Shown: one piece after another, positions 4,703-51,000 of the stretch
Layout of the letters: each line of letters starts with the position of its first letter
Position numbering within the stretch: position 1 is the stretch's first letter
Assembly: GCA_031763025.1 (NCBI GenBank)
Contig: JASSKH010000024.1
Span: forward strand, 10,748,087-10,812,086
Source: Macrocystis pyrifera
Taxonomy: Eukaryota; Sar; Phaeophyceae; Laminariales; Laminariaceae
Direction of reading: 5' to 3'
Length of the DNA: 64,000 nucleotides
Program-made: the position numbers and the translations under genes
The notes under the pieces: generated by a model
The model's database searches: none
Told to the model about the DNA's origin: nothing
The model's input: only the letters and a program-made list of their open reading frames with translations

Positions 4703-5866
4703 TTGTGTTTGTGATTTTTCGGGGTTTTTTTTTCCAACTTTCTCTTCGTACGAGAACTTTTCGCCAAAACGCTAAGAACGCCTTCAAGGAAGCCCGCCCG
4801 GACACATTGGTCGAGGTATTCAAGAGCGATCCATGCTGTGTGAAGCGCGTGGCGGGCACTCAAAGTTAATTTTCAGCGAGAGTGGATAGGACGATTTCCC
4901 TGGTTTCAGTACGAGCGGCCTTACTTTGTACCAGTACGTACGACCAGTAAAATGTTGTCTGTTTTGTGTTCCATCATGAGCACACAGCCTAGACATATAC
5001 CAGGTAGACAACAGACAAATGCACAGAGCATAACGTTACAACGCTGCCGCCCAAAGGCACCTGCAGGCAACGCCGCGCGTGTGACACCCATCTGCGCGGC
5101 ACTGCTGTGGCTGGTTGTGTTTATCGGAGCCTGCGGTCCGTAACCTACCATGTACCTCTCTTTGCAGCTACTGTGTGACAGACCCACGGATACTCTGGAC
5201 GGAAACGTAAGGACTGTTTGGATTGAATATGAGTATCTAAACTGTCCAAATATTTCCGACGTTTTGTGTGTCTTGCCCTAAGCACACGCCAGAAATCTAG
5301 GCATCAGACAGCATTCAAAGAGCACAAACAATGTTCAATCCCGCCTTGTAGCACAAGCAGCAGCAGGCCACACCACGCGCATGTCGCAGGTCCGCCGTGA
5401 ACTGCCGTGGCTATTTACTTCATCAGAGGCTGCGGTCCGTCATCGGTCATGACCACCTCTCCCGTGTGCTGCTGTGCATGTGTGTGCGGTGTGTCGCGAG
5501 TTTTGCGTGTGCCGCGAAAAAACATAATAATGATGTTTCGAAATATGGTCAATTGTCACCATGCCCGATTTTGGACTTGAAGGCGCGAGTTCGATCCTCG
5601 CAGAGACCTTGTCTTTTTGATCTTCTTGTTTTCCCACTTTTTCTTGTATTATCATGTACGTAATTCAGACATCACGCAGACAACAGGTACTGTAGCCCAA
5701 CTGAGCAGAGCAGGGTGCGTGCTACAGCCAGCTGGCTACAACGCTATACACACCTGGCGCCCGCCAGCAAAGCAGGAAGCAACATCACGTGTGTGCGGTA
5801 GTTTGTCCATGCTCTATTGCTGTGGCTTCCTATTATTAATAATACTCGTGGCTGTTTTTTGGGAAA
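4703..5866. other. Intergenic, repeat fragments
   Basis: This stretch holds a fragment shared with 19060 and 28255 (TCTTCGTACGAG...GCCAAAA) and a partial direct duplication, in which the end of 5080-5145 (GGAGCCTGCGGTCCGT) is echoed at 5400-5440. A tRNA T-arm-like hairpin lies near 5585-5605 (GCGAGTTCGATCCTCGC followed by T-runs). I find no gene. Confidence 0.4.
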
Positions 5867-6374
5867 AGGTCAACAGGGGGGTATACCCCCAGTATTTTTA
5901 GCCAAAAGGGCGCATAGGCAAAACACGCCCGCGGGAGGCGTTCCCACGTGCCCTAAGCGGCTCCGAATTCATGTCTGACGCGTTGGCAAGGTGCACGCAG
6001 CCCATACCGACCACGCCCGCCTACTTTTTTTTTTTCGGGCATGTTGTCGGGGCTAACGGCACCGCCGCGCAGGAGGGGTCAAAATAATTCCCTCTTTTGA
6101 CCAAATGTTGCGGGGGTATTTCCCCCGCAACTCTACTATATTCATGTAGTACCCCCGCGTGATCATCGTCTTACCCCCCTTTGACCGAGTCACTACCCCG
6201 CGGTGACCACTCATCACAGCCCCAGAAACAGGTATGAACACTTGTACACGTCACCCTATACAGCAGCCCGAACGCCGAAGGGCGAAACATCCAGCAGTTG
6301 CTATTAATAGTAGTCTCCATCAAAATTTGCGGGAAAACACACGGGGCAACAAATGACACGCAAAATCAAATCTT
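5867..6374 (+). repeat. Left arm of long inverted repeat
   Basis: This segment is the reverse complement, with moderate divergence, of 13427-14080. Shared blocks include GGTCAACAGGGGGGTAT at the outer end, AGCCAAAAGGG, the poly-T before CGGGCATGTTGTCGG, CCGCGCAGGAGGGGT, the GGGGGTATTTCCCCCGCAAC stretch, CCAGAAACAGGTATGAACA and the inner end AACAAATGACACGCAAAATC. The left arm lacks about 150 bp present near the right outer end. It may be one terminus of a large TIR element or half of an inverted duplication. Confidence 0.75.
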
Positions 6375-7600
6375 TATATTACACATAAACATAGAAATAT
6401 TTCCAACGTACCAAATCAAATCGGAAGACTAAAAAAAGGTGGTCGGTAGATGGGTCGGTCGTGTGTACCAGGTCTGTCATGAGATACCGACAGCGCTCAG
6501 CGCTATATGAGTAATAACGAAAATACACACAAGAGGAGACTTCTGACAAGATGGCGATGCTCTTCGTACGAGAGTACCGGCGCCGCCGCTTGCTGTCTTT
6601 ATTAGTTTGGTTTGGTCTGCCTTGTTTGCGGCCTCCGTTGTTGCTTTTGTTTGTTTTTGGTCCGTCTGTTTTCTCCTTGCTTTCCCTCGTGTGTTGGAGC
6701 TGTTGTCGTTTCTCTTCATGCCCATGTAACATGTGTTCGGGGGAAGAAGGAAAGGACGATGTTCCTGTCCGTGTTTGTGGTTGTCGTTGCTCTTCCTTTC
6801 TCGCTTTTGTATTGTGTGTTCGAACGTTTTTTTTTCATTGTTTTCGGGCCAAAAGTACTTGTAAGCTGACTACGTACGTGTTGTAAAGTCCGTGGTGGTT
6901 ATTTATGGGGAACAGTAAAACGAAGGTACTGTAGCAAATCACAGGTAATGGAATGGCAACAAAGGTAACACGAAAGTAACTAAACTTGGCCGTGAGTCGT
7001 AACAACAACGGCTGGTTTTGGTTTTGGCGGTTACGAACAATAATCCTCTTAGCTTTCCCCGCGGCGGCAACGCCTTCGTTCTCCTTGCTTGGAAGTCCGA
7101 TCAAAGCAAGGTTCGGTTGTACATTATGCGGAAGCAAGCGGCATAGTCGTGGCTTTGTAGCACAGCATAACGTCAAGAATAACGACGATACCTGCACTCG
7201 TACTGATGACCATTCAAAGTTAATGGTCTTAGATGTTTGGACGGCTTACAGTACTATAAATCAAAAGTATAGTAATGATTCCGAAAAAAGCCTACCTAGT
7301 GAACGATCAATAGGCTCTCGATTCTATCTCCTCCATCATGCATACCTGGTATACATTTACGAGGTAAAAGCTCACCGTCCCTTTCGATAGCATGTAGTAT
7401 GCACGTATGATATATATATGCACATATCGTGGATACGTTGCAAATATTTGTATGTTTAAATGTAATACAAGGGCTCCGCGTGGGTGCCTCCGGATAGGGA
7501 AATATACCTCAGTGCCAATTCGTGATTACTTTCAAGCAAGTTAGTTAACAAGTTAACATAAATACGCCATTCGAGCTTATTACGAACAGGATCAGGTCAA
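6375..7600. other. Interior of inverted-repeat region, no recognised gene
   Basis: This stretch contains a long frame at about 6990-7390 that lacks an ATG start and resembles no family I know, and a Cys/Phe-rich frame at 6551-6886 in biased sequence. I do not support a gene. Confidence 0.35.
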
Positions 7601-18539: not shown

Positions 18540-18887
18540 TGTTATAAGGATTACCCTGGGCTGGGTAAAATGTCGATCTTTTACCCCTATAGCTCAGTAG
18601 GTAACATCCTCACATTTGACGTCGTCCAGGTCACGGGTTCGAACCTCACTTCGAACGTTTCTATTATAGAAACGCATGCGCGTGCGTCCCTGAAAACACT
18701 TATCCCTGGTTCCCCAGGTAATGAAACGAAGCGGGTAGTAGGTAGGTCAGCTTACAGACGTATACGGTTCCGACGCCCCAAAGATCCCGCCGTTCAGAGG
18801 GGGGGAGAGTGTTATAATAAGGATTACCCTGGGCTGGGTGATCGATCGATCTTTTACCCCTATAGCTCAGTAGGTAATACCTTCACA
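18540..18887 (+). mobile_element. Miniature LTR (TRIM-like) element 1 with split tRNA-type promoter
   Basis: Direct terminal repeats, 18540-18614 and 18810-18887, both start TGTTAT(A)AAGGATTACC and end in (C/T)TCACA. The element is flanked by a perfect 4-bp duplication, CTGC (18536-18539 and 18888-18891). A polypurine tract (CAGAGGGGGGGAGAG) sits directly before the 3' repeat. Just after the 5' repeat, TTTGACGTCGTCC resembles a decayed primer-binding site. Box A (TAGCTCAGTAGG, 18590-18601) lies in the terminal repeat. Box B (GGTTCGAACC, 18637-18646) lies just inside the element, at tRNA-like spacing. There is no coding capacity. Confidence 0.75.
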
Positions 18888-29066: not shown

Positions 29067-29345
29067 TGTTAAGATCAAGCTTGCGGGACACTTTGTATCC
29101 CTGGACAGGTCTGCCTTTTAAGTCGGTAATCGTTGGTACTCACGTGTGTTGCTTGCTTAGCTGTAGAAGAAGAGCAGTTTTTTGTTCCTTTCGTGCACGC
29201 GGAGACTGAGACCAAGCTCGTGCGTCTCTGGAAAACCCCTGGTTTTCCTTTAAGATGCGCCTTCCAAGTACTACAAATACGTTCCCAGTGACTGAGCCCA
29301 GGTAATTACCGGGCTTTCAACCTCATACAAAGCAGTATCATAACA
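29067..29345 (-). repeat. Gypsy 3' LTR
   Basis: Read on the minus strand, it starts TGTTATGATACTGC and ends CTTGATCTTAACA. It matches 36187-36463 along its full length with scattered substitutions and small indels. Confidence 0.95.
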
Positions 29346-29929
29346 CTAGCCCACTCTGATGAGCCGTACAAGCAGAATTATGGGAAATTCGTGGAAACCC
29401 CGATTCCACGAACTAGAACATCATGAGTCGAAGATGCGGCTCCTCAAACCCACTCCCACACCTCTGAACGTCGAGGCAACGAAGCCGGCAAAGTACGTGA
29501 CAAAAAAAGGGAAGACCTAGCCTTAAGGGGCAGGAAGAAATCGGCAATGAAAACCATCGCCATGCCACCCGCACAGGGGGGGGCAGGCGAAGAAGATGCA
29601 TGGAAAAGCGAAAAGTGAGTACGGGAACGAAAAGAAAAATAACCACGGAAGACGGCAATAACCACCTAAACCCAGTCCACAATTCTAAAAGCGCGTCCTG
29701 GGCCCCAATTGAACGGCCGAGCGCCCAGGCCAGTCCCGACACTGAGCGGGGGGGGTAGGCAGGACAAAATACGCAAAAACACATGCCCAACCCAGCCAAA
29801 AAAAATGGAAAACGCACCAGAAACAAATCGGGCAGACAAAAATCACCCCTCAAAGTCCAGGAAGACGACAAAAAATAAATAAATATCGAGTGCAGTCAAG
29901 AAGCGAAAATCAGCTATCCACGGCGGCAC
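29346..29929 (-). other. Gypsy 3' internal region
   Basis: This stretch between pol and the 3' LTR contains a 152-residue hydrophobic, Cys/Phe-rich frame (29413-29871). The homologous stretch in the second copy (38000-38220) does not preserve the frame, so I do not treat it as an envelope gene. The boundary with the LTR lacks a long polypurine run. Confidence 0.5.
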
Positions 29930-30577
29930 CTCGAGATTCATCTACGTTACGCTGGACCCCCTGTGCAAACGCGCTAGCCAAGTGAATTTGCAGACACCAA
30001 GAACCGCGTACAGCGCTCGTCGAAGTCGTGTAGCGCGCCGGAGAAAGAGGAAGATTGATTGGTCCCGGGTCGTCGAAAATCGAACTAAATATACTCAATC
30101 CGTTGATGTAGTTGCGCTGATTTTCCCGAGCCACCACAGACCGTCGTCGCCCTTGTACCAAAAGTGGGCCCCGTTAGGAAGTACAGTGTTGCTGTATCGG
30201 CGGAGCCAATCGGCGTGCGATACGCAGCCATAGCCGGGTGCGAGAAACCGCTCGCCGTTACTCCGAGAAAGCTCCCGTTGTGCCGCGCCAATTCTCATTC
30301 GGCGGTACAGGCGGTTGGTTTGGCGTTGTCGGTTCGGGGTGTTGGCCCAGTAGCGCAAAATTGCGTGGCGAGAAGGCTGAAGGTCCATATCCCGTTCCCA
30401 GGATGGCCGGGACAGTCCCGTCCAGTGCGTCTCGTACATCACCGCGATGACGCCACCTCGACCTCTAACCGATTGATGTTCAGCAATCTTTTCTACTTCC
30501 TGTCGTTCAAGAGGGGTCGAAACGTCGTCCTCGGTGACGTGGTACGGAGGGGATTTCTTGGAGAAATTGTTGAGCAC
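29930..30577 (-). pseudogene. Gypsy chromodomain and Tudor-like C-terminal tail
   Basis: In frame after the integrase stop, VEKIAEHQSVRG through YETHWTGLSRPSWERDMDL to ILRYW follows the chromodomain pattern (I..HR...G...V.W.G....TWE...L...Y). Further on, FWYKGDDGLWWLGKISA resembles a Tudor- or PWWP-type barrel strand. After an apparent frameshift near 30110, FDDPGPINLPLSPARYTT continues it. Chromodomains direct integration to histone-modified chromatin. A second reader-like module behind it is an inference. Confidence 0.6.
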
Positions 30578-30580
30578 GTA

Positions 30581-32053
30581 TTACGTCAACCCCGCCGGCG
30601 AATACTTCGGCATGTCGCCGCGGTCGTGGGGGTTGGCACAGGGCTTGCAGCGTTGAACAGATACGTGCCGGCGAGCCTCAGCGCCGGGCATATCAGAAGG
30701 AAGATCCAAATACAGGAGCTTTGCTCCGAGAGGAGATCCATCCGGGGTGTCTGCTGAGGAGCAGGGGGCAACTGCGAGAACTTTGTAGGGGCCCGTCCAG
30801 TTGAGTGAGAGTTTGGCCTTGAGGACCTCGGCGTCCGTGTCTGGTTTCGCGCCCTGGCGGATGGTGGCCGCCGTATTGTACACCCACACCCAACCACCAA
30901 CGTCAAATTTGGGGACCGGACGCAGAGCGTCGGAGAGGGCGGAGTTGCGGCAGTTCACGCGAGCGACGGTGAGGGCGTGGTGTTGTCGAACGATATCGTA
31001 CGCGCGCTGCTGGCGGTCCATCGCCAAGTCGCAGTAGGCGAGGTGGTCGCGGGCCAAGCTCTGGTGACCGGCGACTCCAGCACGCGCGAAAATCGTGAGT
31101 GGGAGGCGTGGGAGCCAACCCATGTATACCTCGTTGGGAGCAAGACCCGTGGCGGCACTGACGGAATTGTTGTACGCAAATTCGACGTGAGGGAGTTGTT
31201 CATCCCAGCTGTTTTGGAGCTCGTTGACGACCATTGCCAACATCTGGGCCATCGTGTGGTTTACCCGTTCCACCCCACCGTTGCCGTTTGGGCGGTAGGA
31301 GCTGGTGGCAATTTTTCGAACCCCGAGAAGCTGATATACGGCGTGCGAAAGCTTGGAGCAGAACTGGAGGCCGTTGTCCGAGAGGATGCTGCGCGGGCAC
31401 CCCCAAAGAGGGATATACCGGTTGATGGGAATGTTAGCCGTGCCCTCAGCAGTGAACTCGGCCGCTGTGACGGCGTACATGTCAGCGCGGCGGCTGAAAC
31501 GATCAGTGAAAAGAAAGATGTAGGTATTACCTCGGGGCGTCACCGGGAGGGGGCCGAAATAGTCGATGCTGACGGCGATGCCGGGCCGTTCTGGCAAGGG
31601 CAACGTGATGGAGGGCCACCGGACCGTCTGCCGCGACGTTTTCCGTGCTTGGCACTTTAAGCAGTTGCGTAGCCACCACCGGGTGCGGATGCTCATGCCG
31701 ATCCACCAGTAGAAACGTTCGAGCATACGTAGGGTGCGCGCGGTTCCTAGGTGGCAGGAACCTGTGGAATGGCAAGCCTGCATGACCCAGGGGCGCATGA
31801 GCAGCGGAACATAAATACGAATAGGCTCGTCGTTCAATAAGCAGGCCGTACGACCCACCGGGCGTGGCGTATCCAACACAGGGGGGGGGGGCGGCTGTAG
31901 GACAAGTAGAACGATGCCCGCGTCGGTGGTGTGCAAGCGGCCTTTGTTGACCAGCTCCTGAACCTCCGACAAGGGAGGGCGCTGGTGGGAAGGGAAACCT
32001 GATAAAAAGTCGTCTGGCAAAACTTCCGGTCGTCCAAGGGTTATGTAGCGCAT
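30581..32053 (-). pseudogene. Gypsy integrase
   Basis: The 490-residue frame has the H2C2 zinc-binding site (H95, H101, C131, C134 counted from the frame's first Met). The catalytic triad is in IDYFGPLP (D164), ILSDNGLQF (D226) and NGGVERVNHT (E262). The frame ends at a single TAA at about 30578, beyond which the same frame continues into the chromodomain. The truncated relative at 38.4 kb has a sense codon at this place, so the stop is a mutation in this copy. Confidence 0.93.
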
Positions 32054-32131
32054 GGCGTCGTTGCACGCGGGCTCAGCCTGTTGTTCCCGAGCCCAGTCGG
32101 CGTGCGAATAGCGCGTTGCGGAATCACCGAA

Positions 32132-33253
32132 CTAAAAATCGGCAGCTGCGCCGAGGGCGTCCAAGTCAGTCGAGGTGACGGGAGATGCGTCAGTTGGCAG
32201 CGGAAGTCGTAAAGGAGGAGTTCTCACGGGCTCGGTGCGGTCGCGGCCGGACGGGATGGGTACCGTCGGGACGGACGAGGCGACATGAGTCGGGGCCAAA
32301 ACGACGGGTGCGGGCGGTCGCGGCCGTGGGGCTCGCGGCGGGGTGATAGCACGCCGGGCTGATGGTCGAGTGGCCCCGCCGGGCCCGAAGCCATAATCAA
32401 CAGCAGGCGGCACGGTGCCAGCGGTGGCGGCTGTTCGTCGGCGCGTCCGAGATGAGATGCGGCCTGAAGACGGCAAAACGTTCGGAGGCGCCGGGTTGCC
32501 AGGCGGCGATGGGGTAGACGCGGCCGGATCAGTGATCACAGCGGAATCTTTTCCCTGTAAAGTGCTCGTCGGGGGAAGAGCGCGCTGGGCGACAATCGTC
32601 GCTGCAACGGGGGCTTCTGCAGAGCCCTGGCATGAAAGGGAAGACGCGGCCGGAGCAGTGCTCACGACGGAATCTTCGACCTGTAAAGTGCTCGTCGGGG
32701 GAGGAGCGCGCTGGGCGACAATCATCGCTGCAGCGGGGACTTCTGCAGAGCCCTGGCCTGAGAGGGAAGACGTGGCCGGAGCAGTGCTCACGACGGAATC
32801 TTCGACCTGTAGAGTGCTCGTCGGGAGAGGAGCGCCCTGGGCGACAATCATCGCTGCAGCGGGGGCTTCTGCAGAGCCCTGGCCTGAGAGGGAAGACGTG
32901 GCCGGAGCAGTGCTCACGACGGAATCTTCGACCTGTAGAGTGCTCGTCGGGAGAGGAGCGCCCTGGGCGACAATCATCGCTGCAGCGGGGGCTTCTGCAG
33001 AGCCCTGGCCGGAGGGAATGACAAAAACCGAAGCTAAAGCGGCGTTAGCGGGGGGTGAAAAATCCTCCAAGCCAGGACGGCGGTCGACGGTGGGGAAGGA
33101 AGCAGATACACGAGCGACGAATCTCCCCGAAGGAGCAGAGAGGTAGTCAATCCTCATACGTGGCCCCTGTGTGCGAAAATCGCGAAAATCCGAAGAGGCG
33201 AAAGGTAGCCCACCCAAGACGGCACTTTCACTGCGGGACACCAGCTCACCCAA
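32132..33253 (-). pseudogene. Low-complexity spacer between RNase H and integrase, with 42-residue repeats
   Basis: This frame links RNase H to integrase. It contains four tandem 126-bp units at about 32530-33010, each encoding a block like SGQGSAEAPAAAMIVAQGAP followed by LPTSTLQVEDSVVSTAPA. It is followed by a Pro/Arg-rich stretch. Such a long repetitive insertion at this point is unusual for a gypsy polyprotein. It reads as one frame of 373 residues, so it has kept its coding sense better than the catalytic parts. Confidence 0.75.
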
Positions 33254-34182
33254 ACCGACACCAGGGGTCGGCGAAGAGCGAGTGCGAAGCCCGCAGGCTC
33301 CAATGAGGAAGATACCACCGTCCTCGACGGGGTTGAGAGGCAGCTAGACCCACTGCGGTCGTCTTCTGTGGCGGGCTCCGGCAAGCCGGAGAGAAAATCA
33401 GCATTTCCGTTGGCGCTGCCCTTGAGGTACTCGAGGGTGTAGTCGAACGCGGTGAGGAACTCGAGCCACCGCTGGACTCGCGCGTTGTGGTCCCCCACTT
33501 TGCCGATACTCTCAAGTGCTTTGTGGTCCGAAAATATTCGAAACTTCGCGCCCCACAGGTAACCTCGGAGTCGTTTGATGGCCCAGACAGTGCTGCCAGC
33601 TTCCAGGTCCAACGGTGTCCAGTGCCTCTCGGAATCGAGGGTAGCGCGGCTGATATAATCAATGGGCCGTACCGAGCCGTCCGGTTGTTCTTGTTCGAGC
33701 GCGGCACCGAAACCGTCGATGCGGGCGTCGCAGTACACGTGGAAGAGGCGGGAGCCGTCGGCGACGGCGTCCCAGTCAGGGAAGACCAAAATCGGTGGGG
33801 TAGCGAGCTCGGCGAGGATCTGGCGGACGATAACTTCCGTAGCCGGCGTGAAGACGTACTTGGCCCCCTTCCGCAGAAAGGCGGTGAGAGGACGTATCCT
33901 TTTAGACGGGTCGGGCATCAATTTGCGATAATATCCTACGCCGCCCATCAGGGCGCGGACCTGCTTGAGGTTCTTGGGCATGGGCATTTTCATCAAAGCC
34001 GAAACTTTTTCTGCATTAGAGCTTATACCCGCGGGCGAAATAGAGTGACCCAGAAAATTGGCGTCCGTGGCGCCGAGGCGAGCCTTCGAGGGAGAGAGCT
34101 TGAGGTTGTGTTTGCGCAGGCGTTCGAAGAGGGCTCGTATCGTCCTGACGTGGGCCGTCGGGTCAGAGTCGAAAACGATCAC
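33154..34182 (-). pseudogene. Gypsy C-terminal reverse transcriptase and RNase H
   Basis: The frame opens immediately after the catalytic YxDD position, which is destroyed here by a small deletion near 34184. It continues with FERLRKHNLKLSPSK, FLGHSISPAGI and MGGVGYYRKLMP (RT thumb), and then with RNase H blocks YCDARIDGFGAALEQ and FRIFSDHKALESI. The frame shifts again near 33300. The connection-region segment FDYTLEYLKGSANGNADFL has a relic elsewhere, at 44285-44365. Confidence 0.92.
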
Positions 34183-34230
34183 ATCAAAGGTAGGCCGCCA
34201 CTTGTGCCAGGCCTTTAATGACTTCGTTAA

Positions 34231-35832
34231 TCACTTTGACGAACCAGCCGGGCGAAGCACTGCTGCCTTGGGGCATGACGAGCCACTCGTAAAGGCCCGT
34301 GGGAGTGCAGAACGCCGTAAGAGGGACGTTGTCCTTTGCGCGGTAATCTGGTGGAACGAGGAGACCAAATCGAAGAGGGAAAACACCCGTCCCTTCCGCA
34401 GGGAGTCGAGGACTTGGTCCACGCGAGGAATAGGCAGCTGGCTGAGGTTGCTGATCGGGTGGATCGTTTTGTAGTTCACGGTGATCCGAACGCCCCCAGA
34501 TTTCTTGGGGATGACCACCAGCGGGCGCGAGTACGGGGAAGTCGAGTGCTGGATCAGACCTGCCGCTAGGTACTGATCCAAGGTGGCCTCCACTTCCTTG
34601 GCCAGGATGGGGTTGATGCGGTGCGGCCTGGATGTGACAGGAGCACTGCCTTCCGGGACCGAGATCACGAAAAGCATCAACGAGCAGGAACCAAAATCCG
34701 ACTTGGACTTCGAGAAAACGTCAGTAAATTCGCAGAGAACATCCCCCAGCTGTTCGATGACCGCAGGGGTCCAGCCTGTGCCGTGGAGGTCAAAAGCCAC
34801 CTCCCGCAGATGTGACGGCAAGCGTGCCCAGACGTGCAGGAACGAAGCGCGCTGTTCTGAGGTCAAACGCTCAAGCAGTACAGGCGAGGGCGAGGCTGGA
34901 GCTGCGAGGGGGGGGGCAGTAACTGCTGAGACCGGACACACCTCACCTAGTCCGGAGGGAGGGCTGGGGGCTCGGTTGACCTGCTGCAAAACGTTCAGCG
35001 GGACGCTCAGCAATGGGGCGTGGGCGACGCCGAGGACATCCCCCGGCTCGAGAGCCGCCACTCCAACGAGAGGAAGAACCTGTCGTCCGGAGGAGACGAA
35101 GTGCTCCTCGACCGAGGGTAGGTCGGGCTGGGGCATCATGTCGACCAAGTAGTGTCCAGTGAGGGCCGGGGAGCCATCGCTTCGAACCAAGTCAACAGCA
35201 AGCAGTTGAGGATCGTCGGACAGGGTGACGCCTGCCGCGCCCTCGTAGCGTAGATGGAAGCCTCCACCCGAAGCGGCGGGGTCGATGGCGTACACGGACA
35301 TGCCTGTCGGGGCGTGGTGAACTAACTCCAGCTCACCAAAAACGCGTTGATCAGACGGCCGAGGTGGCAGAGAGCGGTAGGAGCGGCTATTAAAGCGCAT
35401 CCAGCTGTCACGTCCCAATAATACAGCATGCTGCATCACTGAGGGGGGGACCACGCAGGCCCAAACTGCGAGGGAGCAAGTAGGCTCATTTTCTCGAAAA
35501 AATCGGACGCTCAGGCGCACACTCGTCGAAGTCTTCAGAGGGGCCGATTCGCCCAAACCCCCCCAAGAACGAGGGGCGCCTTTCTGCTCGTACGCGAGGG
35601 ATGCCGCACCAACCGAGTGCATGCGATCCAAAACATCTCGTCGGATGAAAGTCTGCGGAGAGCCAGTGTCAAGAAGCGCCACGTAACCAAAAGGTGCAAG
35701 AACGCCAGCTCCGCTGTGAATCGCCATTTTGGTTGTAAACGAGGCGTCATCGAGGGTAATGGTGCCCCCGACGAGGCAGGGGCCGTGTTCTGGCAGCGCG
35801 AGGGAGGGGTCGACACTAGGTGCGACAGCCAA
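34231..35832 (-). pseudogene. Gypsy protease and N-terminal reverse transcriptase
   Basis: The aspartic protease active site is at residues 54-58 (LDTGS). The reverse transcriptase begins around residue 405, with AGLIQHSTSPYSRPLVVIPK, VRITVNYKTI and the FSLFDLVSSFHQI block. A frameshift just after that block replaces the next conserved RT segment with unrelated residues, so the RT palm is split between this frame and the next. Confidence 0.9.
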
Positions 35833-36185
35833 ATCTCGGGGTTGTGGTCAGCCGGCGCGTCAGAAAAATAGGTCGAAAACTCCAAAGGAGGACCTGGGCA
35901 AGCGCGGGCCACGGCCAAAGGGCGGGGCGGCGCTGGTGCAATCTCATGAATTCTGTCAGTTCTGGTTGGGGTGCAGAATTGATGGGAGGAGGCGGGGTGT
36001 GCCAACCCGGCCTCACTTGAGCTGAGGGTGTCGCGAACGGCGGAAAGAGCTTTACCGAGCAAATTTTTTCCATGCCACCGAGAGGGGTCGTGAGCTTCGG
36101 GGTCGTCTGCCCGCAGACTGATGCCCCGCACGACATCAAAAGGGCTGGCTTCAGCCAAAATATTTTGTCCTGCCGACGACGCCAC
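35535..36185 (-). pseudogene. Gypsy leader / remnant of gag-protease N-terminus
   Basis: An open frame of 216 residues starts at the primer-binding site. It is proline-rich with no zinc knuckle or capsid similarity that I can see. It shifts frame into the protease-RT frame around 35780. Either this lineage has a very short or unusual gag, or most of gag has been deleted. Confidence 0.5.
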
Positions 36186-36186
36186 T
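36168..36186 (-). promoter_or_regulatory. Gypsy primer-binding site
   Basis: TGGCGTCGTCGGCAGG on the minus strand, 2 bp inside the 5' LTR, is complementary to a tRNA 3' end with CCA. A near-identical site, TGGCGGCGACGGCAG, follows the terminal repeat of the mini-element at 49230. Confidence 0.75.
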
Positions 36187-36463
36187 TGTTAAGATCAAGG
36201 TTGCGGGACACTTTGTATCCCTGGACAGGTCTGCCTTTTAAGTCGGTAATCATTGGTACTCACGTGTGTTGCTTGCTTAGCTATAGAAGAAGAGCAGTTT
36301 TATTCCTTTCGTGCACGCGGAGACTGAGACCAAGCTCGTGCGTCTCTGGAAAACCCTGGTTTTCCATTCAAAATACGCCTTCCAAGTACTACAAATACGT
36401 TCCCAGTGACTGAGCCCAGGAAGTTACCGGGCTTTCAACCTCATACAAAGCAGTATCATAACA
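36187..36463 (-). repeat. Gypsy 5' LTR
   Basis: This is the 5' LTR in minus orientation, with TGTTAT...TTAACA termini. A 2-bp gap then TGGCGTCGTCGGCAGG follows on the minus strand (36184 downward). This begins with TGG and is the expected tRNA primer-binding site. Confidence 0.95.
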
Positions 36464-39819: not shown

Positions 39820-42325
39820 AACTGGCTCATCCTAACGACTGTTCCAACGCCTTCAATACTGTAAAGCGGACGGCAGTACTTGCCGAGGCGGCCACTTGCG
39901 TGCTGCTCACGCCGTTCATTGCTAAATGCTACGGCGAGAGGCCCGCCCCTACGTTCTTCCAGATGGACTCGGGGGAGCGGCGTAAAATTGACTGCTCCAG
40001 TGGAGTGCAGCAAGGGGATGCCATGGGCCCGGCGCTGTTCTGCATGCCACTGCTGCCAATACTCAAACGGGTCCGTGAGGAGTTTGAACCCCGGGGTGTT
40101 AGAGCCTTTGCCTACCTCGATGACATCAGCATCGGTATATCAGAGATCACACCGGACACAGTGAGAGTAGTGCCCTTTCTCCAGCACGAGCTGTGCGAAA
40201 TAGGCGTTGCAATTCACCCCAGCAAGACGGTTGCTTTGCCTCCAAAAGGGCATGTGCCTACGTCGGAAGAGATAGCACTTCTGGGGGGCATAGGTGTCCG
40301 CATTCCGGAAGGGGGTGGGGTAAAGGTGGTTAGCGTGCCCATAGGCACTGATGCATTCGCGGTGAACCGTCGAGACAGTCCGAGATGGGGGAGCAGAGCA
40401 ACTCGCGCGCATCCTGCCGCGTATGCCGGACAAACAGTCGGCGAACCTCATCGCCACCGGTTCAATGGTGAAGCGGACCTCCTACATTGAGCGGGTAATG
40501 GACCCGGAGCTGTCACTACCCGCGTGTCAGCGGGCAGACAATAGCGCAATATGGATGCTCGAGCGCCTTCTCGAGCTTCCAGGGTGAGCCGGCGTCCCCG
40601 GTGGCTTGGTAGGTGGTCCGCGAGCCTATCAAGATCAATTTCGTGAGTTCGAGTCTCACCGAGTGCATGCTCATAGGGACTTTTTCTTGCATAAAATTGA
40701 TTAGCGGAAAGCGCGAGAGCGTGAGTTAGGTGTACCTTCGATGAAAATCGACGAGCAGTGGGAATGCTGAACCCTATGCGCGATAAAAACTAAAGGCACG
40801 TACCGGGGGGGAGAAGGGACGACACCTGTGACCACGGCTTGTCCAGAAGATCGTCGAGGGTAAAACCTCCTACGAGTGGGCTGGAAAGTAAAAGTGATGA
40901 CGAAAAAAAAAAAAAAAAAAAAAAAGGGATAGCGGACGAATCGCCGTTCTTTGCGGACGGATGCCCGGCGAACCGGTTGACGCTACAGCCCCACCAGAAA
41001 GCGCAGGCGAGCCTCTCCACAGGGGCCGGGGGGTTTGGACTGTCATCGGCTGAATCAAGGAGAATGTCAGCGTCCATCGGGAGCTTAGTGGCGACGGTGC
41101 CAGAGGTCCTTGCTGACCTCTCCGGCCCATTGGGGGGAAAAGTCCGAAGGGAGTTGCCCAATTCGGACCTCGTTCGCCGCATATGGAGTAGCGTCAGGGA
41201 CCTCCGTGACATCCATGGGGTATCGGAGGAGGCAATGGCGAACGTGGTCCCGGAGAGCTGGCGGAACAGGGCGTTTCGCGCGAACGAGGGAGGAGTCTCA
41301 GAGCAGTTTGATATGGAGGCATTGCCAGCACATGAAGCCCAAACGATCAGCTCCCACAAAGCGCAGCACAAGCTGGGGCAGCAGGTAAACCGGGTACGGT
41401 ACCAACGGTACGTTGCGTCTCTGGACCAGCTCCCCGAGGCAGCAGGCCCGTCGAGTCGGAACGACGTGTTCGGGGGAATCGAACCAGAGATCTTGCCAAG
41501 GCTCGGCAACGGAGCCTATCGGGACCAGGCGCTGTCGCCTGTTTGAGAGCAAGGCCTGTGGACACGGCACGAATCATACCGGCTTCGGAGTTCGTGTCTA
41601 TGGGACGGCGCTTTCTGGGAATGGAGGAGCCCATAGCGACGAGGTGCCCCTGCTGCGAAGCGACGGATGTCACCACGCGTCACGCGCGCACATGCCACCG
41701 AGCAGGCGCGCAGGTAAACCAGCATCAGCCGCTAGTCCACGCGCTGTCCCGCACCTTCAAGCGGTTGTCCATCCGCCATCAAACGGAAAGCGGAGCGCCC
41801 TTCAACGCCGACAGAAACCTCCGCATGGATATAGTGATCGAGAGGGGAGGCCTCCGAGACGCTACGTCGTCAGAGTACCGTAACAAGGCGATACTCCTCG
41901 ACAACACGCACGCAGACCCCCAAGCGAGAGTCTACATGCGGGCTGGCAGCGCTGATCGAGACGAATCAGCTGCCTCCGCTTCCGAGGCGCGAAAGCGCAA
42001 CCACTACGCTCGTGCAGGACAAGTGTCCTTCGACGAGCGCAGCCATAAACTTGTCATCCTCGCGGTGGAAAGCTTTGGACGCCTCGGGAAGGAAGGCAGC
42101 GATTTCATCGACCAGCTGGCAACGAGCATCATCGGAGGAACGGACGGGGGATCTCTAGCAAGAAAAGGGGTTTGTAAGGAGCATCTTTTCCAGATCATAT
42201 TGGTGACCACCCAGGTCGCGATCTCGCGCCGGGTGCACCGATATAAGCTCGCCCTGCGAGACCGCCAGGCCGCCAGGGGGAGAAGAGAGGAGGAGGGAGG
42301 ACTACTTCCCCTGGCGTGGGGATGA
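39820..42325 (+). pseudogene. Non-LTR retrotransposon: reverse transcriptase and RLE-like endonuclease (5'-truncated, interrupted)
   Basis: The RT starts mid-domain (DCSNAFNTVKRTAV-type sequence near 39840). It contains SSGVQQGDAMGPALF and the catalytic FAYLDDISIG (YLDD at residues 72-75 of the 39900 frame). A frameshift near 40360 moves the frame, and a SINE splits it at 40588-40925. The thumb/connector resumes (GAGGFGLSSAESRRMSA). After another shift near 41540, the last 260-residue frame (41543-42325) has CPCC...H...CH zinc-finger residues 35-52. It is followed by RMDIVIE (D96) and AILLDNTHADP (D120). This order (RT, CCHC finger, PD-D/E-type nuclease) is that of restriction-like-endonuclease LINEs such as R2 and NeSL relatives. 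Confidence 0.85.
40588..40925 (+). mobile_element. tRNA-derived SINE, copy d (nested in LINE)
   Basis: Full-length plus-strand copy: GCCGGCGTCCCCGG, box A TGGCTTGGTAGGTGG, box B GAGTTCGAGTCTC, then the shared body and an uninterrupted A-tail of about 22 at 40903-40924. It separates LERLLELPG from ADESPFFADGCP of the LINE protein. It is the best master-like copy in the window. Confidence 0.93.
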
Positions 42326-48072: not shown

Positions 48073-51000
48073 ATGATGATGTATCAACAATACCCGTGCA
48101 GCGATAGACACTTTACCGGCCGGTGAAGGATGGGCTTTTTACTTCACCAACGTTGAGCCAATACTACGAGCATCTATAGGCAGCCTCCACGCTGCCACGA
48201 GCGACGCTGAGTGCCTGTTGAAGAAACGGAGGGGGAGGTCACATAATACATATCCGGCCAGGCGCCAAATATCGCCGGAAGCCAAGGAGGACGTGTACAG
48301 TCGTATGATGGAATCCGAGGGTGGCGACATGGTCCAAACCTTCGACTTCGGGTCCATTGAGGAGATGGATCCATCAGTCGGTGAGCTGCTTACTTCGTGC
48401 TTTACTCATTCGACTCATTCGGCAATTGAGGGGTAACCGCCCGATTCCTCTTCAGGACAAGTACGATATACTTCGGTGTTCATATCATACATCATACCGG
48501 GGTACAGCACGTACGTACTCGTAGTACACTGACTCCTGTATGATACGGACAGGTTGCCTCCGGTCATATCGCGGAAAGCAACGTTTTCAAAGCTCCTAAC
48601 TACTCTTAATATCATTGTATTCGTAAGGAGGAGAGCTCGCCCTGCCTCCCTCCTTTCGAGTGACTGTGGCACATCTGTCACAAGAATACACCCTTCATGC
48701 CATCGAGGTACTACAGTTGTACTGTACTGTGTAGTGCATGCAGCAGCAGGTACAACAAATCATGTACCAGGTATGCAGCAGTACCTGAGACTGCTGCATA
48801 CCTTATACCTGGTATCTGGTATGCGTATATACGATATGCCTACGCACTTACTTACGTGAAAACGATTGAGGTCGTACAATCCAACCAATGTGTCCACCCA
48901 TCACATAAATGCATACGTGGGGGTTGGACGTTGGAGCACATTATATTTATGCGACTGCCGTTTGACATACTGCACCAAACAGGTGAAACATTCAAAGTAG
49001 TACACTTCGCAAACAAACGGAGATGTACATCATCAGTAGTCTATCTTTCATATCACATATCGGGTATGTACCCACCCGCACACCTTCTCGGCTACTTATT
49101 ATGGTACTGCTTTGAATAAGGTTGAAATGCCGGTAATTACCTGGGTTCACCTTGGCCTTAACAAACTGCTGCACTTTCGTTGAGAGATGTCATCTCGTCA
49201 TCTCGCCCTAGCTCGTGATTTCGTCATGCTGTTATGAGGCTTAGAGTGGGTAGGCGTTTGGTTAACCTTTTACCTTTAGCCCAACGGACTAAGACCTTAA
49301 CAGATGGCGGCGACGGCAGAACATGGGTCGTTGGTCGTGAGTTCGAATCTCACGTCCACCATGAAATCGCTTTTTAAGAAAAAAAGTGAATTTCCTCATG
49401 TCAAGAACTTGAAAAAATACTTCTGGATCCCCAGAAATTGGAACCGCGTGTTGGTGTCACGCGTCGACCCGTGTATATATCCGGTCCGTTCCAGGGGGGG
49501 AGAGTGTTATGAGGCTTATATTGGGTAGGCGATTGGTTAACCTTTTACCTTTAGCCCAACGGACTAAGACCTTACTTAACAATACCGTATTTTCCACTCG
49601 GTGCGCAGACATGGGGGGGGGAATCACATTATTTACCAAGCTTGCGCTCTTCTTGCTTGTGCCATCGCAGTGTTTGTAAGCTGCAGTTCACACTACGGAT
49701 GGGCCTTTGCTTCAACAACTTGAAAAAAAACTACCCTTGTCTTCGTACTGTATGCAAGTTATTCATGTGGGCGTTATCCCTGTTCCCCTTTCCGGTTGGG
49801 TTCCTATTTCTACATGAACACCTGTATCATGTCACCAGCGGACGGATTTCGCGTCATCTATGACCGTGAAGTCCCCTTTGAGCTGAGAGTGCAGGAGTCA
49901 GCTGATGGCCCGCAGCAGGTCGGCACTCTCGAGGCGATTAAGGTCAAGGTACTTCTGCTGGTAAGAAGCAGGACGCAGGACAGCATGCTTGTGGTTCGGG
50001 TAGTTGGCATGTTTGTTTTTGGCTCGACGGCTCGGCTACGTGTGGCAATGGGGCGAAATAATTTCGACGTTACGTTACGTGATCCATAATACTTGACTAC
50101 AGTACTGTGACTGGAACTACTTATACTACTGCTGTTGTAGCAGCAGCGTTTCTATATATAGAGCGTTCTTTGTAGGAGCTGCGTACAGCAGTATCGCTGC
50201 AGTTCAGTTATTAGTATCAATAGTAGAGCTTGAAGCTAACGCATAAATTATATTAAATAATAGTAAGGAATACGTTTATGTGAAAGTCGCCGAAATAGAG
50301 TGAATTTCAAAGAAATACTCTCTCGCCTATCCCGATCCCGTCTAGAGTATCATATGCACACCGGATCATGCTCAGCAAGGAAGCTATAATATTCGATGGG
50401 GCACAAGACCAAAGCGTCGTACAAGATCCGAACGCACACACTTCGATACTCATGCGCGGTCTATTTTACGTTCTTGTGTACTGTTCGAAGTGCGCTCGTT
50501 GTTCGTTTATAAAGGATAAACCACTGAGCTACTCAGTCCCACTGAGCTTAGTGAAAGAAGTCCGGGGTTCGAGTCCCGCCAGACGTCGTATTTCCGCTTT
50601 TTCTGCCGTGGGTAGAAAAAGGGAAATCAAGTGGAGAGAACCACGATAAAAGAACACTCGACCAGAGAGTCGAAAGTGGAGTGAACCACTTGAGTAAGAG
50701 AACGCACGACTAGGGAGGGGGACAATATGAATGAAAAACTAGGCGCTGATTAGGGGCTTGATCAACCCCGGAGGATGTTATCGGCGGGAGGCCGTATCGA
50801 GCCCAAAGGTACTTCTTTTGTTCGTTTATAAAGGATAGACCACTGAGCTACTCAGTCAGCTAACCCCCCGGTGAATTTGACCGCTGTCGGCATGCGCGTG
50901 CATCTGCCACTTGACAGGGCGACGACTCGGCACCTCAATCTGTCAGAGTGGAGCTCTCGAGCGAAGCGGATCTGTTTTACCACTACACACACCTCACAGA

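Follow-up and report, generated by a model that had tools for sequence, protein, structure and literature searches.

Where does a retroelement with terminal repeats of only 73 bp keep its promoter? The question is raised by a 352-bp element at positions 49230-49581 of a 64,000-nucleotide stretch of the brown alga Macrocystis pyrifera (contig JASSKH010000024.1, positions 10,748,087 to 10,812,086 of the forward strand), called the window below and used for all coordinates unless a locus is named. A first-pass annotation of these letters had proposed a miniature long terminal repeat (LTR) element with a tRNA-type promoter for RNA polymerase III (Pol III), rebuilt from a box A near the end of the LTR and a box B just inside the interior. 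Our analysis supports its classification as a terminal-repeat retrotransposon in miniature (TRIM). Its RNA is most likely, in our judgement and with moderate confidence, started by Pol III from an internal tRNA-type promoter split across LTR and leader, a reading that rests on comparing copies and families within one genome.

Anatomy of the element

At 49230-49581, on the plus strand, stands a complete LTR element without coding capacity. It has the following parts, in which PBS denotes the primer-binding site, PPT the polypurine tract, TSD the target-site duplication and T5 a run of five Ts:

49230..49302, plus strand: 5' LTR, 73 bp, TGTTAT...TTAACA, direct repeat
49277..49287, plus strand: box A (TAGCCCAACGG), a tRNA-type box match within the LTR
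49303..49504, plus strand: internal region of 202 bp, non-coding; the median among 21 TSD-bearing copies is 197 bp
49305..49322, plus strand: PBS of the window copy (TGGCGGCGACGGCAGAAC), its TGG start at 49305 lying two bases past the 5' LTR end at 49302
49339..49349, plus strand: box B (GAGTTCGAATC), confined to the internal region
49371..49375, plus strand: T5 run 21 bp 3' of box B, at which Pol III may terminate prematurely
49494..49504, plus strand: PPT (GGGGGGGAGAG), flush against the 3' LTR
49505..49581, plus strand: 3' LTR, 77 bp, direct repeat, with box A present and no box B after it

These coordinates bear out the first-pass description of 73- and 77-bp repeats, a TGG-starting PBS, a flush PPT and the placement of the two boxes, and the same LTR-interior-LTR plan recurs in 51 full-length copies described below. 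Over 70 bp the two repeats agree at 96% of positions, and the second has four additional bases, CTTA, near its end. From the start of box A to the end of the 5' LTR is about 25 bp; box B lies 37 bp into the internal region. No open reading frame (ORF) of at least 120 amino acids overlaps the element, in keeping with the lack of coding capacity of TRIMs, and its size and termini are also those of a TRIM (TGTTAT...AACA repeats, median LTR 73 bp, total length under about 1 kb). The window copy is without a TSD.

An intact tRNA or a known ribozyme element was dropped as a candidate: ARAGORN found no tRNA in the window, and Rfam returned nothing there at gathering score. Among the matches below threshold, the tmRNA model (tRNA clan) covered 49220-49361 at 11.9 bits, against a cut-off of 47. 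Pattern scans of viral contigs gave no match.

Copies across the genome

A search of the genome (537,376,219 bases in 223 contigs) with the window element, which represents what we call family A, gave 52 matches, the best 40 of 2,020 candidates having been scored. The 23-mer from box A to the LTR end, with at most two mismatches, occurred at 2,158 sites (1,127 + 1,031), which are LTR ends of any kind and not a number of elements; the reversed pattern occurred at none. Junctions of box A with the PBS numbered 598 genome-wide (reversed control, 4).

From the fetched loci (L numbers below) we cut 51 distinct LTR-interior-LTR copies, which were selected for resemblance to the window copy and are thus biased for box retention. 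Sixteen have PPT or PBS sequence in a flank and were set aside on that criterion as belonging to tandem or truncated arrays; a few of the remaining 35 (L011, L041 and L043 among them) resemble array pieces that escaped it. Four-bp TSDs were present in 22 of these 35 non-tandem copies, versus 6 of 1,190 control pairs of flanks taken from different copies. In 21 of the TSD-bearing copies (one of the 22 was unparsed) the paired LTRs differed at a mean of 2.6% of sites, and no pair was identical. Tandem arrays with shared LTRs are also present, among them a three-unit TRIM array between CTGG repeats at L046. Together, the LTRs, a PBS matching tRNA-Ser, the PPT, the 4-bp TSDs, the 2,158 LTR-end sites and the LTR-sharing arrays support the assignment of family A to the TRIMs, as the first pass had suggested.

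The same copies bear on whether the tRNA-like part came from a tRNA-derived short interspersed nuclear element (SINE) that had landed in an older TRIM, where its LTR meets the interior. tRNA-derived SINEs have a box A/box B promoter and a tail of the long interspersed nuclear element (LINE) type. The kelp element shares the two boxes with them but differs by its LTRs, PBS, PPT and 4-bp TSDs; its TSDs flank the LTRs, and no sequence search was aimed at a LINE-type tail. A tRNA-derived SINE with a similar box B arm (GTGAGTTCGAGTCTCAC) does occur in the window. However, box A is found in both LTRs, the PBS sits between the boxes, the TSDs enclose the LTRs, and neither a SINE tail nor an inner duplication was seen between the parts, and we hold an insertion of this kind to be highly improbable. 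A recent insertion at the junction is contradicted by the anatomy of the copies. The outcome that the first pass had named as fatal to its proposal, an independent SINE between unrelated repeats, appeared in none of the copies examined, and other copies do share the boxes and the PPT.

Conservation of the two boxes

Within family A, 49 of the 51 5' LTRs and 43 of the 51 3' LTRs had an exact box A, and 44 of the 51 copies an exact box B core (GTTCGAATC). The distance from box A to the box B core was 64 nt in 46 copies, and TTTT stood directly upstream of the 3'-LTR box A in 46 as well. For a less biased sample, eight loci were fetched from 100 listed sites of the 2,158 matched by the 23-mer. 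Five of these were TRIMs, with the box B core exact in L067, L069 and L071 and one mismatch in L066 and L072. The others held a 3' end only (L070), an LTR followed by tRNA-Ser complement (L068) and a longer element without box B (L065).

Six diverged full-length members (L031, L042 twice, L038, L069 and the window element at 18540) are 56-78% identical to copy L029. Their mean conservation was 72%. Box A of the 5' LTR reached 91%, equalled by 2.7% of stretches of the same length, the box B core 94% (equalled by 0.9%) and box A of the 3' LTR 88% (equalled by 6.3%).

The element at 18540 represents a second family, B, with the same plan:

18540..18887, plus strand: family B element, with LTRs at 18540-18614 and 18810-18887 and TSD CTGC
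18590 and 18863, plus strand: box A (TAGCTCAGTAGG), in both LTRs
18635, plus strand: box B (GGGTTCGAACC), in the interior only
18799, plus strand: PPT

The family B PBS lies between box A and box B, as in family A; that of the window element is degenerate. A genome search with this element gave 43 matches (best 40 of 2,979 candidates scored), and ten copies, the window copy and nine fetched from the match list, were aligned. Box A was exact in nine of ten 3' LTRs and the box B core in eight of ten copies, and 4-bp TSDs bounded six of the eight copies without a flanking PPT. The two families are about 56% identical, and the spacing from box A to box B is 45 bp in family B versus 62 in family A. 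Between the families, then, the boxes differ in sequence and spacing, as does the bulk of the element, while the box A and box B invariants of tRNA promoters persist on both sides of the PBS.

A pattern of box A (12-nt form), TGGCGNCGNCG and GTTCGAA, which demands a better PBS than most of the aligned family B copies have, matched 93 genome sites (reversed, 0). Of the 31 sites whose sequence was read, 28 were of family B type, one was like family A and two on contig C189 (TAGCCCAACAGG) resemble a third family; an exact 18-nt PBS separates the boxes in 16.

Primer tRNA and candidate helper

Sequences matching the tRNA arm that the PBS implies were found at 169 genome sites (89 + 80; control, 0). 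Eleven loci were inspected, and one (L057) contained an intact tRNA-Ser(AGA) according to ARAGORN. The last 15 nt of this tRNA plus CCA are the exact complement of TGGCGTCGTCGGCAGGAC (18/18), the PBS form carried by 8 of the 51 family A copies; in 30 of the 51 the PBS has three mismatches to this tRNA. As in other TRIMs, a tRNA-complementary PBS thus stands just after the 5' LTR.

At several loci (L058/L063, L059/L060, L068 and L055/L062) LTR ends are followed by tRNA-Ser complement that extends past the 18-nt PBS, and at L063 a whole tRNA has apparently been copied after the LTR end. These extended complements are probably traces of a reverse transcriptase that copied the primer past its usual stop. 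At L049-L053 and L062, inverted arms resembling LTR ends flank the 3' part of tRNA-Ser in a palindromic arrangement.

The window also contains a longer retrotransposon with the same PBS:

29067..36463, minus strand: Ty3/gypsy-type LTR retrotransposon, candidate helper, with Pfam RNase H and integrase domains (integrase core below cut-off)
36184-36167, minus strand: its PBS, an exact TGGCGTCGTCGGCAGGAC

Its LTRs match at 267 of 276 positions and have the tips TGTTATGA...CTTAACA, and its TSD is GTAC (4 bp). The PBS, LTR tips and 4-bp TSD length are common to this element and the TRIM, as would be expected of a non-autonomous partner. A recombinant of the two occupies L046:2845-5997 (minus strand), in the order gypsy LTR, TRIM interior, TRIM LTR and gypsy pol end with 3' LTR. 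The gypsy 5' LTR, itself broken by the three-unit TRIM array, joins the family A interior at the PBS, and gypsy positions 5700-7404 follow the TRIM LTR. This one structure (n = 1) fits copy-choice between co-packaged RNAs, with ectopic recombination as a possible alternative.

A model for transcription and its rivals

From these data we infer the following scheme. Box A lies inside the LTR and box B inside the interior, so the promoter would be complete only where a 5' LTR joins its leader; solo and 3' LTRs would hold half. Transcription would start a few bases upstream of box A (R/U5, the repeated and unique 5' regions), run through the PBS, box B and PPT, and pass into the 3' LTR. It would end there, perhaps at the TTTT directly upstream of box A, giving a very short R; this TTTT would be ignored at initiation in the 5' LTR and act as a terminator in the 3' LTR. 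A Pol III promoter of the internal type forms part of its own transcript, so R/U5 and the leader can hold it and the unique 3' region (U3) needs none, and a U3 without a promoter fits an LTR of 73 bp. The tRNA-Ser would prime reverse transcription, and a Ty3/gypsy helper would provide Gag, reverse transcriptase and integrase and make the 4-bp target duplications.

A more elaborate version, in which the Pol III promoter was assembled around the PBS, only a complete 5' end is transcribed, solo and 3' LTRs are born silent and box B perhaps came from the primer tRNA, is in our view doubtful. In such an origin, reverse transcriptase running past the 18-nt PBS would write the complement of the tRNA T-arm (TCGAACC); the box B core GGTTCGAACC is the same on both strands, so an over-copied T-arm could seed a sense-strand box B. 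Over-copied tRNA ends adjoin LTRs in the same genome. Simple read-through of tRNA-Ser was rejected as the source in family A, whose sequence right after the PBS mismatches the tRNA, and is only speculation for family B.

A number of observations weigh against a divided Pol III promoter and its tRNA-Ser primer and gypsy helper. By itself the box pair is unremarkable: the window has four pairs at score 15 and two at 16, where 1.45 score-15 pairs are expected per 64 kb (both strands, Markov sequence). The excess over chance comes from the anatomy repeated across copies and a diverged family, not from the score of the pair. At the seven sampled 5' junctions the box B core was found with at most one mismatch in five and exactly in only three, and at L068 and L060 the LTR with its box A is followed by tRNA-Ser complement in place of box B. 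Family B had an exact box A in only five of ten 5' LTRs, the others being off at one or two sites; its PBS is mostly of a shortened TGACGTCGTC--CAGG form, with the 18-nt tRNA-Ser PBS intact in one copy of ten (L079). In family A, the PBS of 29 of the 51 copies is a variant (TGGCGACGACGGCAGAAC), changed at three sites, that fits tRNA-Ser(AGA) at 15 of 18 positions, and no acceptor arm fitting this variant was found among 100 of the 169 arm sites listed. Other short stretches of the diverged members (the LTR tips, the GTCCACCATG stretch) are likewise highly conserved, and six sequences are few. Finally, the gypsy PPT is unlike that of the TRIM.

A further difficulty is the run of at least five Ts that follows box B in 40 of the 51 family A copies and would stop most Pol III transcripts near 105 nt. 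It could mean that two RNAs are made, a short tRNA-like Pol III RNA of about 105 nt ending at T5 and a full-length template from RNA polymerase II (Pol II) or from read-through. Several diverged members are without the T run, however, so it is not a fixed feature, and we consider a division of labour between two RNAs improbable.

The same 73-bp family A LTR also bounds an element of about 4.2 kb on contig C27 (C27:7351-about 11573; L065 + L073), which has TSD TTTA and matches family A in the last 41 bp upstream of the 3' LTR. It contains a gag-like ORF with a CCHC knuckle (CLNCHEDTHYLRQC), in which Pfam found no gag domain, and against our reading it has no box B after the PBS. Nor is it unique, since 182 bp of its interior are found again, at 95%, in L038. 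Should this be a successful family, box B is not needed for the LTR to work. With its TRIM LTRs around a gag-like ORF it resembles TR-GAG elements; at its size it is distinct from the family A TRIM and probably related to it or derived from it.

This longer element, the T5 run and the near-chance score of the box pair all favour an ordinary Pol II TRIM, driven from its LTR, in which the box-like motifs are kept by common descent or for RNA roles such as packaging, dimerisation or primer annealing. A T-arm-like hairpin around box B may be such an RNA structure, with a weak predicted fold for the presumed transcript as a whole (z of only -1.76). Yet the tRNA box invariants and a tRNA-like spacing persist in two families that have diverged this far. 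Moreover, family B shows, as read by eye, only weak T-stem pairing around box B, which leaves box B unexplained by an RNA hairpin. On balance, Pol II transcription seems to us rather unlikely. The split promoter proposed at first pass therefore stands with qualifications: in its favour, diverged members and family B keep both boxes well, while the internal T5 and the same-LTR element without box B count against it.

Relation to known elements

Helenus TRIMs, the nearest of the known systems compared, are reported from fungi, animals and Selaginella and carry a tRNA-like sequence within the LTR (Kojima 2024, PMC10886601). The same paper has the term TRIMp3 for Pol III-type TRIMs, and the word 'stramenopile' is absent from its main text. 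The kelp TRIM resembles Helenus in being a short non-coding LTR element with a PBS to a tRNA 3' end, a PPT, boxes A and B and tandem arrays. Its 4-bp TSDs are like those of animal Helenus, for which a gypsy helper was proposed (PMC10886601). In contrast to Helenus, with boxes A and B both within the LTR, the kelp TRIM has its box B (37 bp into the interior) and PBS outside the LTR, and the PBS between the boxes. It would belong to TRIMp3 by virtue of a promoter predicted from conservation. Cassandra (PMC10853983) is likewise a TRIM whose Pol III promoter comes from a small RNA gene; there the promoter is 5S-derived and lies in the LTR, whereas the kelp window has no 5S match at Rfam gathering score.

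In the open-access literature searched, PMC10886601 was alone on the subject of TRIMp3 and Helenus, and no paper was found that combined LTR retrotransposon, Pol III promoter, box A/B and PBS. Among the papers listed on tRNA promoters and polymerase III, no split promoter appeared in titles or abstract openings, and among those listed on brown algae none concerned TRIMs. A paper on Ectocarpus transposable elements has neither 'tRNA' nor 'Cassandra' in its main text (PMC12477816). Within the open-access papers searched, a promoter straddling the PBS is new, as is the host group; TRIMs with tRNA promoters were known already (Helenus, 2024). The first-pass remark that no TRIM with a divided tRNA promoter had been described thus holds for the divided form, but Helenus does carry a tRNA-like promoter, within its LTR (PMC10886601).

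Should the split promoter prove real, it would show that an LTR retroelement can do without any U3 promoter and shrink its LTR to about 73 bp. Solo LTRs would then be without a complete promoter, unlike those of Cassandra and Helenus, and Pol III-type TRIMs would extend to a brown alga. Screens of LTRs only, like the one behind the discovery of Helenus, would miss split-promoter TRIMs.

Other repeats in the window

Two further kinds of repeat were noted:

40602 (plus strand), 21048 (minus strand) and 10340 (minus strand): tRNA-derived SINE-like repeat, TGGCTTGGTRGG ... with a T-arm such as GTGAGTTCGAGTCTCAC
39900-40490, plus strand: reverse transcriptase fragment (Pfam RVT_1), probably LINE-type
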